Of a stretch of 64,000 nt of DNA, positions 1-44,565 are shown piece by piece (within the stretch, counting starts at the first letter, position 1; the number at the start of each line of letters is the position of its first letter). Position numbers and translations under genes: made by a program. The DNA comes from Oleisolibacter albus (GTDB taxonomy: Bacteria; Pseudomonadota; Alphaproteobacteria; Azospirillales; Azospirillaceae). The stretch is taken from NCBI RefSeq assembly GCF_003336875.1, contig NZ_QGNJ01000001.1, positions 1 through 64,000 of the forward strand, in the 5' to 3' direction. A model generated the notes under the pieces. That model had not been told where the DNA came from. It searched no databases and saw nothing but the letters and a program-made list of their open reading frames with translations.

Positions 1-127
1 CGACTACCTGAGCCCGGTGGAGTTCGAGGCACAGGACGAACCACCAGTGCCGCCCGGCCGGGCGGCACTGGTGGCGGAAACCATGCTGTAGCTTTTGCGA
101 CATGTCTCAATGATGGGGTGCAGTCCA
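1..127 (+). mobile_element. Right end of an IS3-family insertion sequence (truncated by window edge)
   Basis: The first 91 bases encode the end of a DDE transposase of IS3 type. About 24 bases after its stop codon lies GGGGTGCAGTCCA (115-127), whose complement TGGACTGCACCCC has the TG start and C-rich run expected of an IS3-family terminal inverted repeat. The left end is outside the window, so neither the other repeat nor the target duplication can be checked, and the exact outer boundary is an estimate. Whether the element is intact is unknown. Confidence 0.6.
2..91 (+). CDS. IS3-family transposase OrfB, C-terminal 29 residues (partial)
   Basis: An open frame runs in from the left edge and stops with TAG at 89-91. 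It reads DYLSPVEFEAQDEPP and then a short tail. The string YLSPVEFE is characteristic of the extreme C-terminus of IS3-family OrfB (rve integrase core) transposases, where it follows the last catalytic glutamate region. Only the tail is present here, so the catalytic DDE residues cannot be examined and activity cannot be judged. The protein would catalyse circle formation and insertion of the element that ends at about 127. Confidence 0.7.
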   Translation, partial: DYLSPVEFEAQDEPPVPPGRAALVAETML

Positions 128-134
128 CCTTAGC

Positions 135-186
135 GTCACCTTTGGGTGCGTTTGGTCGCCTTATGGTCTCCTTATGTCTCCTTGTC
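135..186 (+). repeat. Array of five 9-11-bp repeats, consensus GTCNCCTTATG
   Basis: Units start at 135, 146, 155, 166 and 176: GTCACCTTTGG, GTGCGTTTG, GTCGCCTTATG, GTCTCCTTAT and GTCTCCTTGTC. The near-helical spacing of 9 to 11 bases means the GTC half-sites lie on roughly one face of the DNA. A related five-unit array in the opposite orientation sits at 42089-42142. The array lies just outside the IS3 end and about 60 bases before the rpoZ -35 box. Function is unknown. The spacing resembles direct-repeat sites of OmpR/PhoB-type regulators, but no regulator is identified. Confidence 0.6.
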
Positions 187-248
187 CGTCCGGAGCCGGG
201 TGCGGGTCCGGGGCGCAAAAAGTCGGGGCGAAAGCGGCGTTCGGTGTC

Positions 249-41430: not shown

Positions 41431-42069
41431 ATGCGCATCGATCCGGCGACGGTCCTGGCCGCAGCCACGGGCCTGACAGCGGGCAATGCCGACACGCCGA
41501 TGCCGGCGCGGGAGCAGGCGACCGCGTCCGACGCGGCCTTCACCGCCGACAGGCCGGTGGATATGGACACGGCGACCGCCAATCTGGTGCTGGAGCGGTT
41601 GCGCCAGGCCGCGGACAAGGCGCGCACCAGCCACCGCGATATCCTGGCGGCCGAGCTGCGCCGGACCCTGGACACGGTCCAGGCCCTGCAACTGGCTGGC
41701 CCGCCACTTCAGATGGCCAGGACCGCCGCCCGCTACGCCAAGGACATCGCCGATCTGTCCTGGCATCTGGGGATTGCCGCCACCGCCCCCGGCGGGCGCG
41801 GTGCGGCCGACGCGGCCATCATCGCCGCCACGGCGGAGGATGCCGTGCAGGGCAAGACACTGAAGGGCCTGCTGCGCGGGGCCCTGGGGCAGATCCGCGG
41901 TCTGCAGCAGGCGGTGGATGCCGCCGAACGACGCGATCACGCCCTGGCCGACCCCGTGGGGGCGGAGCTTCCGCAACTGGCCCTGGTGGTGCGCCAGCAC
42001 GCCGCCCGCGCCGCCAAAGCCCTGGACCATGTCGGCATCCGTCTGCCCGACCGCGATATCGTCCTTTGA
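41431..42069 (+). CDS. Unrecognised 212-residue alpha-helical protein
   Basis: I do not recognise this protein. It is alanine-rich and almost entirely predicted helical (for example TATANLVLERLRQAADKARTSHRD, then RRTLDTVQALQLAG, then GKTLKGLLRGALGQIRGLQQAVDAAERRD). There is no signal peptide or membrane helix. A GGGGAGA-type site lies before the ATG. Composition resembles the neighbours. It ends 12 bases before the 11-bp repeat array, so its transcript would run directly into that structured region. Confidence 0.65.
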   Translation: MRIDPATVLAAATGLTAGNADTPMPAREQATASDAAFTADRPVDMDTATANLVLERLRQAADKARTSHRDILAAELRRTLDTVQALQLAGPPLQMARTAARYAKDIADLSWHLGIAATAPGGRGAADAAIIAATAEDAVQGKTLKGLLRGALGQIRGLQQAVDAAERRDHALADPVGAELPQLALVVRQHAARAAKALDHVGIRLPDRDIVL

Positions 42070-42081
42070 GAGGCGACGACC

Positions 42082-42142
42082 GTCACCTTAAGGCGACGCC
42101 AAGGTGACATCAGGTGACACCAACGCGACGTTAAGGTGACAA
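42082..42142 (-). repeat. Array of five 10-11-bp repeats (minus-strand GTCRCCTTANN), with one inverted copy
   Basis: Plus-strand units are TAAGGCGACGC (42089-42099), CAAGGTGACAT (42100-42110), CAGGTGACAC (42111-42120), CAACGCGACGT (42121-42131) and TAAGGTGACAA (42132-42142). An inverted GTCACCTTA (42082-42090) abuts the first, giving the near-palindrome GTCACCTTAAGGCGAC. Read on the minus strand, the order of unit variants matches the array at 135-186, including a degenerate GCGTT-type second unit. More loosely spaced relatives follow at 42155-42162, 42229-42254 and 42265-42275. Confidence 0.65.
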
Positions 42143-42561
42143 AGACGCGGCCGATGTCGCCTGTCAGAGGCTTGAATTTAAAGGAATAAAAACCTTAAAG
42201 TGACAAACGCAACCGGTTTTCGATGCATGTCGCCTTTGTCGCTTTAGTCTCTGATCTGCTTGATGTTCACCTGTCAAAGATCCGGCGCGTCCGCCAGGAA
42301 CGCCGGGGTCAGTGAAGCATGAACTAGGTATTTCGTCCACGAAAACGGTGCGGGCGGGGCGGCCAACGGCTCCCGTGCCGACGCACCCAGTCACCAGAGC
42401 GGGGGCGTCGCGCGGAGCGGCCCCTGTCGCGCATCGCCGGATGCCGCGGACTGACGGGCGGGCGGCAAGGGGGGGCGCCAGCTTTCAAAGGGGTGGCGCG
42501 CGTTTGGGCGCACCCGCGTAAATCAGCGCGGATATACTCTGCATTTGAGGAAAATAATAAA

Positions 42562-42577
42562 ATATACCTAAGTATAT
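42562..42577. promoter_or_regulatory. AT-rich dyad ATATAC-CTAA-GTATAT
   Basis: This is a perfect 6+4+6 inverted repeat within an AT-rich block (42538-42582) in otherwise GC-rich DNA, about 310 bases before the chemoreceptor start. It could be an operator or part of a promoter; no regulator is identified. Confidence 0.4.
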
Positions 42578-42885
42578 AGTGGCGCTATGGCCTGACTGAT
42601 ACTCTTCGCCGCATACATACGCGTAGCATTGACCTTCGTGCCCGCTCTCACGGAGGTTAAATCCGGTCGTCTGTTGAGAACGCAACTTTCTCTGCTGTGG
42701 GCGGAGATGGTGCCATCAGCGGAAACGCGACCGAATAGGGGAATGACCTGCGTATGACGCCTCCCGAGACAGGGCATGGTGGCGGTGGAGACGGCGTGCC
42801 CGTTGGGGGATGTGTGCCGCTGTCGATGAGCGTACATGCCGATCTTGGCTCATGCGGACGCACACGAGAGAATTGAGAAAATTCC

Positions 42886-44565
42886 ATGATCGCAAATCTG
42901 AGGATCGTCGTCCGGATCTACATCCTGATCGCAATCGCGGCGCTCGGCATTGGCAGTGTGGCACTGATCTGTTCAAGCCAGATTAAAGAATCCCTGCTGA
43001 ACGAGCGGGAAGAACAGACGCGGCGTCTGGTCGAGACGGCGCATTCCGTGATCGCCAGCTATGAGCAGAAGGCCAATACGGGGCAGATGTCGGTCGAGGA
43101 GGCGCAGAAGATGGCCCTCCAGACCATCACGGCCCTGCGGTATGACAAGGTGCAGTATTTCTGGGTCAATGATTGGGACGGAAAAATGCTGGCCCACGGG
43201 GCCAAGCAGGATCTGGTCGGGAAAACCCTGATCAACGAAACCGACGCCAAGGGCGTCAAGATTTATGTCGATTTCATCGATATAGCCAAGAACACGAACG
43301 GCAAGATCTATCAGTATTATTGGCCGAATGCCCAAGGCGAGGTCCTAGCCAAGATGTCCTATATCAAGGGCATCTCGTCCTGGCACTGGCTGGTGGGCAG
43401 CGGCGTGTTCCTCGACGATGTCAATGCCATGATCGCCAGCGTTGAGCGTACCATCGCCATCGCTTCCATACTGCTGCTGATCGCCGCCGCGGCCATCGCC
43501 ACCTTCATCGGCCGCAGCATCTCCAAGCCGGTCCAGATCATCGACAGCGGCATGCGGGAGCTGGCCGCCGGCAACCTGTCGGCCACCCTTGGCCTGGGCA
43601 CCCGCAAGGATGAGATCGGCAGCATGGCCCGCGCCTTTGACGATCTGCGGGAAGGGCTGAAGCGGGCGCGTGCCCTGGAGGCCGAACAACGGTCGGAGGC
43701 CGAGACACGGGCCGCGCGCGGCGAAAAGGTGGCGGGTCTGGTCCGCGACTTCGAGGGCGTGATCAAGACGGTTGTCGGCGGGCTGTCGTCGGCGGCCGCG
43801 AACCTGCAGACCAACGCGGCATCGATGTCGGCCTCGTCGCAGCAGACGCGCCAGCAGAGCACCGTTGTCGCCTCGGCGGCCGAGGAGGCGACGTCGAATG
43901 TGGAGGCCGTTGCCGGCGCCACGGAGGAGATGTCGGTCTCCAGCTCCGAGATCGGCGAGCAGGTCAACAAGGTCTCGTCCATGGCCGCCGCCGCCGTGGA
44001 GGAGGCCAACCGGACCGGCACGGCCGTTGACGGGCTGGCCCAGGCGGCACAGCGCATCGGCGATGTGGTGGCCCTGATCCAGCAGATCGCCAGCCAGACC
44101 AACCTGCTGGCGCTGAACGCGACCATCGAGGCGGCCCGCGCCGGCGAGGCCGGCAAGGGCTTCGCCGTCGTCGCCTCGGAGGTGAAGTCCCTGGCCAATC
44201 AGACGGCCAAGGCCACCGAGGAGATCTCGGGCCAGATTGCGGGCATCCAGTCGGCCACCGGATCGACGGTGACGGCCATCCGCGCCATCGGCACCTCGAT
44301 CGATGACATCAGCTCGGTCGCGACCATGGTTGCCGCCGCCGTGCAGCAGCAGATCGCCGCCACCCACGAGATCTCCAACAATGTCCAGCAGGCGGCGCAG
44401 CGGACACAGGATATCTCCCGCAACATCGCCGGGGTGGCGCAGGCCGCCGACCAGACCGGCACTGCGGCCGGAGTGGTGCTGGATGCCTCGAACATCCTGG
44501 CCGACGAAGCCGGAAAGCTGCGGCACGAGGTCGACAGTTTCCTGGGGCAGCTGAACCGGGCCTGA
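42886..44565 (+). CDS. Methyl-accepting chemotaxis protein with single Cache domain
   Basis: At 559 residues, transmembrane helix 1 is at about 8-30. The periplasmic domain (about 31-185) is sCache_2-like, with [19 protein letters not shown] and [16 protein letters not shown]. Transmembrane helix 2 (about 190-208) and HAMP (about 210-265, [15 protein letters not shown]) follow. The cytoplasmic signalling hairpin has the highly conserved tip [21 protein letters not shown]. Such receptors sense small carboxylates or similar ligands and signal to CheA. No C-terminal CheR/CheB pentapeptide is present. No che genes are nearby. Confidence 0.93.

Follow-up and report, generated by a model that had tools for sequence, protein, structure and literature searches.

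A short repeat array of Oleisolibacter albus is one module of a larger dispersed element with a promoter-like core, a hairpin and a boxA leader

Introduction

Several described systems share single traits with the repeat arrays reported here. boxA sequences occur in the leaders of CRISPR arrays, and the pneumococcal BOX elements and MITEs are modular, intergenic and carry one of their modules in variable number. At eukaryotic rRNA genes, the Sal-box and Reb1 terminators are repeated short protein sites that end a transcription unit. Antitermination of the rRNA type is documented outside rRNA for few genes. In Escherichia coli, boxA is described as recruiting NusB/E and opposing Rho-dependent termination (PMC4807359), and a survey of boxA sites states that non-coding RNAs were not considered (PMC5725501). 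REPs are dispersed repeats that are targeted by insertion sequences (PMC1525189).

The locus analysed here lies in a 64,000-nucleotide stretch of DNA (hereafter the window), in which an initial annotation made from the sequence had noted two related arrays of short units about 42 kb apart. The window belongs to a genome of 4,687,533 bases in 44 contigs (G000), which was compared with other genomes of its family and class. In the open-licence papers searched we found no description of the element presented below.

Results

Two arrays in the window

When one mismatch is permitted, GTCNCCTT units form two same-strand clusters of at least three in the window, with four and six units, at the places where the initial annotation had put its arrays; 100 first-order Markov simulations of the window yielded six clusters of three in total and none of four or more. 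The units of copy 1 start at 135, 146 (a degenerate unit, GTGCGTTT), 155, 166 and 176 on the plus strand, and those of copy 2 at 42070, 42090, 42101, 42111, 42122 and 42133 on the minus strand. The genome-wide comparison with a control that the annotation had proposed was carried out and favours the arrays: the pair pattern GTCNCCTT-N(1-4)-GTCNCCTT has 36 matches in the whole of G000 (16 on the plus and 20 on the minus strand) against 0 for the reversed pair pattern used as control. Its guess of a dispersed short-repeat family holds, given these counts and the genome-wide matches of the array profile R1 described below, and the kinship that it had proposed for the two arrays is supported, since this single profile detects both. 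The agreement in the order of unit variants, to which it had also pointed, is weak evidence; an insertion sequence (IS) has removed the start of copy 1, so that the register of this copy is lost, and a second unit with CG replacing CC is common in the family (by eye, it occurs in 9 of the 19 aligned copies of A1). The further units reported at 42229-42254 are present, but they belong to module B of copy 2, as its inverted left arm, and form no separate array.

The array turns out to be a module within a larger element, which also has a promoter-like core, a hairpin and a boxA leader (Table 1). Copy 1 of the window is a fragment, the 5' side of which was cut away by the IS right end, and copy 2 is a complete element, whose module B contains an inverted repeat (42196-42213 and 42229-42246) with 83% complementarity. 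A simple sigma-70 consensus scan of window positions 41900-42900 returned no promoter and no terminator, and the core of copy 2 was not listed by it.

Table 1. Positions of the two element copies and of the adjoining insertion sequence end in the window
Feature	Position	Strand	Evidence
IS right end (IS3-type as labelled in the initial annotation)	87..127	+	Exact 40-base end at 7 genome places; flank comparison
Copy 1, remnant array (module C)	128..190	+	R1 match 126-184, E 1.3e-4
Copy 2, module C, GTCNCCTT-type units in direct repetition	42070..42141	-	R1 match 42086-42242, E 3.5e-28
Copy 2, module B, inverted unit pair around a short loop	42193..42246	-	Inverted repeat and alignment A1
Copy 2, boxA, TCTTTGACAGGTGAAC	42265..42280	-	R2 match 42269-42340, E 4.7e-10
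Copy 2, boxB-type hairpin, ending 1 nt ahead of boxA	42281..42310	-	Fold z -2.41
Copy 2, promoter-like core: TGGACG, 17 bases including ACCTA, TTCACT	42311..42339	-	Alignment A2

Anatomy, copy number and distribution

The element is about 250-320 bases long and is present in about 26 copies in G000. A full copy proceeds from a promoter-like TCCTA core through a hairpin, boxA and a variable spacer to module B and finally module C, and this order and orientation are common to the copies. The promoter-like core and the leader constitute module A; the spacer between A and B differs from copy to copy and is unalignable; module B is an inverted unit pair with the block TGTCACCTTAAGG, and module C is the direct array. 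The core sequence is similar among the copies of one species. A conserved RNA fold of modules B and C was considered and dropped, because RNAalifold gave just eight weak pairs there, at -0.2 kcal/mol.

R1, a profile of modules B and C built from the 19 copies of alignment A1, matches G000 at 25 places with E ≤ 2.3e-12; window copy 1 is a further match, at E 1.3e-4, and among the weaker matches several are second halves of copies split by insertions. At E ≤ 1e-4, R1 matches three of the 82 genomes of the family, namely G000 (26 matches), Aerophototrophica crusticola MIMtkB3 (G004; 35 matches) and the metagenome-assembled genome Rhodospirillaceae bacterium bin98 (G019; nine matches). If strong matches of the leader model R2 (see below) are counted as well, elements are present in four of the 82. 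Isolated unit pairs lacking a match to the array profile occur in 11 of 40 relatives, one or two in each, versus two of 40 for the control. Over the GTDB contigs, a triple-unit pattern picked out at least 119 stretches; among the 80 listed, matches on several contigs of one genome belong to A. crusticola and bin98, and the scattered single matches in unrelated phyla are provisionally taken as chance or coding. A blastn search with the element against plasmids and phages, from which records very near G000 were possibly excluded, gave no match.

Two variations within A. crusticola may be recorded here. Loci L147 and L150 have the variant units GTAAAGTT and GTCAAGTT, and both arms of the inverted pair seem to be altered together; at L105 and L108, other short repeats of the CATCCGTGTCC type are found within the spacer between the leader and module B.

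The leader

In an alignment of 52 leader copies from three genomes (A2), the core reads TGGACA (TTGACA in some copies) and TCCTA, with each base invariant or conserved in at least 90%. After TCCTA come a conserved G of an extended -10, the last T of the -10, the hairpin and then boxA, GGGTCTTGGACATGGTGAA; the -10 position is poorly conserved in G000. For folding, 61 loci were supplied, which included five of the nine loci of G019 and left out L011, L023, L033, L117 and L120 of the G000 loci; six loci gave no leader at first, of which two were recovered by hand, and three wrong assignments were corrected. A boxA-bearing leader was obtained at 57 of the 61 (L006, L139, L142 and L091 are without boxA), of which 56 were folded, L137 being too short. 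The stem ends 0-1 nt ahead of boxA in 51 of the 56 folded copies, and the folds have a mean z of -2.03 relative to dinucleotide shuffles, with 42 of 56 below -1; these counts, like those of the phasing below, are not independent, because the copies share descent. The stem sequence varies from copy to copy. Consensus folding of A2 with RNAalifold gave zero base pairs, and the hairpin is drawn from single-copy folds.

R2, the leader model, was trained exclusively on elements and has 24 matches in G000, one per array except at two, the IS-cut copy 1 of the window and the array that follows the HTH gene on contig C2 (see below); the leader of the array on C11 lies on a different contig, behind an IS. 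R2 falls below 1e-7 in four genomes (G000, G004, G019 and G022) and gives weaker matches (to 0.01) in 17 more, and across 385 genomes drawn from the class, under strict filters, G000 is the only one with E ≤ 1e-5. At six of the eight loci viewed in G022, the leader is followed by units of another motif, GGTGCGTTAAG; two of the 11 matches of a short unit pattern in this genome lie outside leader loci, and these are arrayless, while the control pattern had four matches.

All seven rRNA leaders of G022 carry GGKTCTTGAACAAC behind a hairpin (the latter judged by eye), with one base different within GGGTCTTGRACA. The hairpin-boxA half of R2 matches G008 and G002, two genomes with no R1 match, at modest E-values of 0.0026 and 0.0033; in both genomes the match falls into the 16S-23S spacer, with tRNA-Ala on one side and 23S on the other, and the sequence there is CGGTTCTTGGACATCGTGAAA. 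A third comparable match, in G018, is at a contig end with no rRNA in view. The G000 assembly contains no 16S, and a search for 16S in eight relatives was positive in one, G022. By these comparisons it is well supported that the boxA of the element is of the rRNA type, shared with the rRNA operons of relatives, with a hairpin directly upstream.

Helical phasing of the arrays

Phasing was assessed where five or more units are chained, in 14 arrays from G000, 28 from G004 and nine from G019. The mean unit spacing in these genomes is 10.60, 10.59 and 10.89 bp, and the best periods are 10.6, 10.6 and 10.8 bp, respectively. Adjacent spacings compensate each other, as seen from lag-1 correlations of -0.42, -0.44 and -0.65, which were reached by 34, 0 and 0 of 2000 permutations, and the observed coherence was reached by 0 of 500 reassigned sets in each of the three genomes; these figures are not probabilities, because the copies share descent. 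The spacings in G019 arrays alternate between 9 and 12. An array phased to the DNA helix points to a protein located on one face of the DNA. The spacing close to one helical turn, from which the initial annotation had guessed a protein-binding array, is thus real and more regular than under permutation of the spacings; the regulator type that it named is taken up in the Discussion.

Insertions into elements

One IS interrupts the G000 assembly at 13 contig ends (seven right and six left ends), including that in the window. Paired through duplications of 3-4 bases, the 13 ends represent seven insertions, with the end at window copy 1 left partnerless, and the duplications are mostly inside array units. 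Six of the seven insertions are in elements, five of them in arrays and one in the A-B spacer, with the one at C9/C6 outside; the elements account for about 0.2% of G000 by our own estimate. The element is thereby marked as a repeat targeted by an insertion sequence. Another IS, the ends of which we take to be IS630-like, sits inside an array at C7/C23 (L123 at the C7 end and L118 at the C23 start).

Two copies are long, with inserted DNA between leader and array. The spacer on C5 (L292) holds an IS1595-type transposase and a gene with AlbA_2 and HATPase_c_4 matches, and that on C42 (L293) a 1.5-kb insert with an AbiU2-like (HEPN) gene. They were considered as candidates for an autonomous transposon and rejected, being later insertions of other elements.

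Gene context

Gene directions were read roughly from third-position G+C; one locus gave no row, and four of 56 had no readable right-hand neighbour. The right-hand neighbour faces the array at 38 of the 52 readable loci, with its stop codon within 20 bases in 18 of the 38 (hand count), and the left neighbour is directed towards the element in 34 of 56. Arrays are mostly at gene 3' ends. In window copy 2 the array begins immediately after the stop of an ORF at 41431-42069, which has no Pfam match, and a chemoreceptor gene is on the other side of this copy; copy 1 is upstream of rpoZ and a relA/spoT gene.

A helix-turn-helix protein gene linked to the arrays

The proteins encoded beside the G000 elements were compared with those at the element loci of G004 and G019. 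One common arrangement was found, that of L120 and L142, in which the encoded proteins are 51% identical over 257 aa and lie to the same side of the element; L010 and L129 match more closely (70% over 170 aa), but on opposite sides, and were not counted, and there are four further short protein matches between element loci. The only gene shared at element loci encodes a helix-turn-helix (HTH) protein of 459 aa in G000 and 395 aa in G004, and in both species modules B and C directly follow this gene, without module A. In Pfam the HTH proteins matched HTH families alone, HTH_7 and HTH_23 (partly above and partly below the cut-off), with no transposase catalytic domain at threshold and no Tyr (HUH) transposase. 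A terminase-type match, phrog_7344, was obtained for one of five HTH proteins and is weak (E 0.0019); against phage records the protein had no match.

In a search of the 82 genomes, the best non-query genome was G019, where one copy scored 80 bits and another 49, and the next genome reached 34; in G022 no HTH match was found at 1e-5, despite its leaders and its other array motif. Because the genes of G000 and G004 were the query, G019 is the one genome that bears on the co-occurrence of HTH gene and array in this search. The first HTH gene of G019 runs off the contig end. The second has the core TTGACATCATTCCTAT and ends in a second array type, GTAACACGAC-GTAACACAAC-GTATCACA, and this type, with GTAACAC units, also stands behind TTGACAATATTCCTAT cores at two more loci of G019. 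The G019 loci recorded for this array type are L309, L310 and L350.

Relatives of the HTH protein appear in plasmid records of Azospirillum (three) and Niveispirillum (one). In five of the six named plasmid HTH genes viewed (L354-L358), an array of the GTTCCAC type stands at the 3' end or close to it and comprises one inverted unit plus two direct ones with a distance of 10 bp; the sixth, L353, has no array in view. Most of the Azospirillum relatives viewed carry a different array type at the 3' end of the HTH gene. A similar array without an HTH gene lies between pheA and hisC (L359), and at a convergent junction (L360) similar arrays occur twice, with a GTTTCAC unit and again without the gene; short-query blastn found the Azospirillum arrays in few places. 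Among 11 HTH-type frames obtained from 20 loci, five have a TCCTA-type core upstream, and so do three of the six named plasmid genes (L355, L356 and L357); the core is inverted in L353 and merely degenerate at the HTH gene of G004. The linkage between HTH gene and array across these loci suggests that the gene and its array type tend to travel together.

As a separate observation, TTGACAATATTCCTATA cores were seen ahead of a gene judged by eye to be ParB-like at L287 (G058) and L290 (G079).

Discussion

Proposed mechanism and its rivals

We tentatively propose, with slightly less than even confidence, that the arrays are helix-phased rows of operators for the HTH protein, reached by antiterminated non-coding transcription. 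The operators would be bound by a protein of the HTH family present in G000 and related genomes of the family, and most arrays of G000 would end a short non-coding unit composed of promoter, boxB-type hairpin, boxA, spacer, inverted pair and array; the TCCTA core of the putative promoter resembles the cores of several HTH genes. Polymerase would start at the promoter-like core and acquire Nus factors at boxA, and owing to these factors it would resist Rho on untranslated RNA and reach the array. There the HTH protein, arranged along one face of the DNA, may decide whether transcription stops at the array or runs on towards the neighbouring gene, in which case the transcript would often be antisense to the 3' end of this gene. 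The unit of the HTH gene itself would need no boxA, because its transcript would be translated. A wider version of this proposal, which we consider doubtful, is that of protein-gated transcription fences, in which each member of the HTH family, with a phased motif of its own, would end boxA-led non-coding transcription at gene 3' ends and would control itself via the array terminating its own gene. If the proposal is true, the two dozen hairpin-boxA leaders in a single genome, all running into a helix-phased array that has a candidate cognate protein, would be a natural multi-copy test of boxA on untranslated RNA, and the elements would test whether bacteria use bound proteins as planned transcription ends.

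The main rival, possible though on the unlikely side, is a non-autonomous, MITE-like mobile element, in which modules B and C would be recombinase-binding ends, module A would serve the spread and the arrays would have no host role. Patchiness (R1 in three and strong R2 in four of the 82 family genomes), similarity of the cores among copies of one species and the differing neighbours of the elements (a single common arrangement between G000 and the G004 and G019 loci) would all suit such an element, but inspection of aligned copies by eye revealed neither terminal inverted repeats nor target duplications nor sharp ends, and the spacers between the conserved modules are unalignable. The linked protein matches HTH families only, with no transposase catalytic domain at threshold, and the two long copies trace to later insertions by other elements.

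That the HTH protein on phased arrays instead marks sites of chromosome organisation or partition, centromere- or macrodomain-like, with transcription secondary, is improbable. The helically phased direct repeats and the scattered positions of the elements agree with such sites, as does the similar promoter core before a gene that is ParB-like by eye in two genomes, but a boxB-boxA leader in fixed orientation would be left unexplained; the HTH gene is near a replication initiation gene on two Azospirillum plasmids, whereas the part of A. lipoferum p3 that was viewed shows no replication gene next to it. Slimmer still are the chances of a function at the RNA level, with the GUCACCUU units of a transcript acting as a sponge or as an anti-Shine-Dalgarno-like antisense RNA: a phasing to the DNA helix is unexpected for single-stranded RNA, and the G022 unit and the second G019 array type do not fit, although the leader would direct transcription into the array and the array unit presumably resembles the complement of a ribosome binding site. 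Rfam searches of 20 element loci at E ≤ 1 gave merely four matches, all under the gathering score and chance-like. An operator array for an OmpR/PhoB-type response regulator, the type that the initial annotation had named on account of direct repeats close to one helical turn, is very improbable and unsupported, because the protein encoded by the array-linked gene has a resolvase/homeodomain-like HTH instead, and the arrays are mostly at gene 3' ends and possess a leader of their own.

Comparison with known systems

Like the boxA of CRISPR leaders, that of the element is ahead of a long untranslated repeat array; unlike CRISPR arrays, the element has units of 9-12 bp, no spacers between them and many loci. 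With the pneumococcal BOX elements and MITEs it shares a modular, intergenic build and a variable count of one module, but it differs from them in its rRNA-type leader and in that no terminal repeats or target duplications were seen. The Sal-box and Reb1 terminators offer an analogy of working only, in that a DNA-binding protein recognises repeated short sites where a transcription unit ends, and no homology is claimed. The non-ribosomal boxA targets of the suhB type likewise place boxA outside rRNA, but those sites precede protein genes (PMC5725501). REP/BIME sequences and RAYT genes are similar in being dispersed intergenic repeats that are targeted by insertion sequences and have one gene tied to its own repeat (PMC1525189); the element, however, lacks the REP palindrome, its linked gene encodes an HTH protein rather than a Tyr transposase, and it has a promoter-like core and a boxA. 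The leader resembles the rRNA leader and the 16S-23S spacer, as its hairpin is directly followed by boxA in the same way as in the rRNA operons of relatives. In contrast to those operons, the boxA of the element does not stand before rRNA, and it is scattered over about two dozen places, at all of which it runs into an operator-like array.
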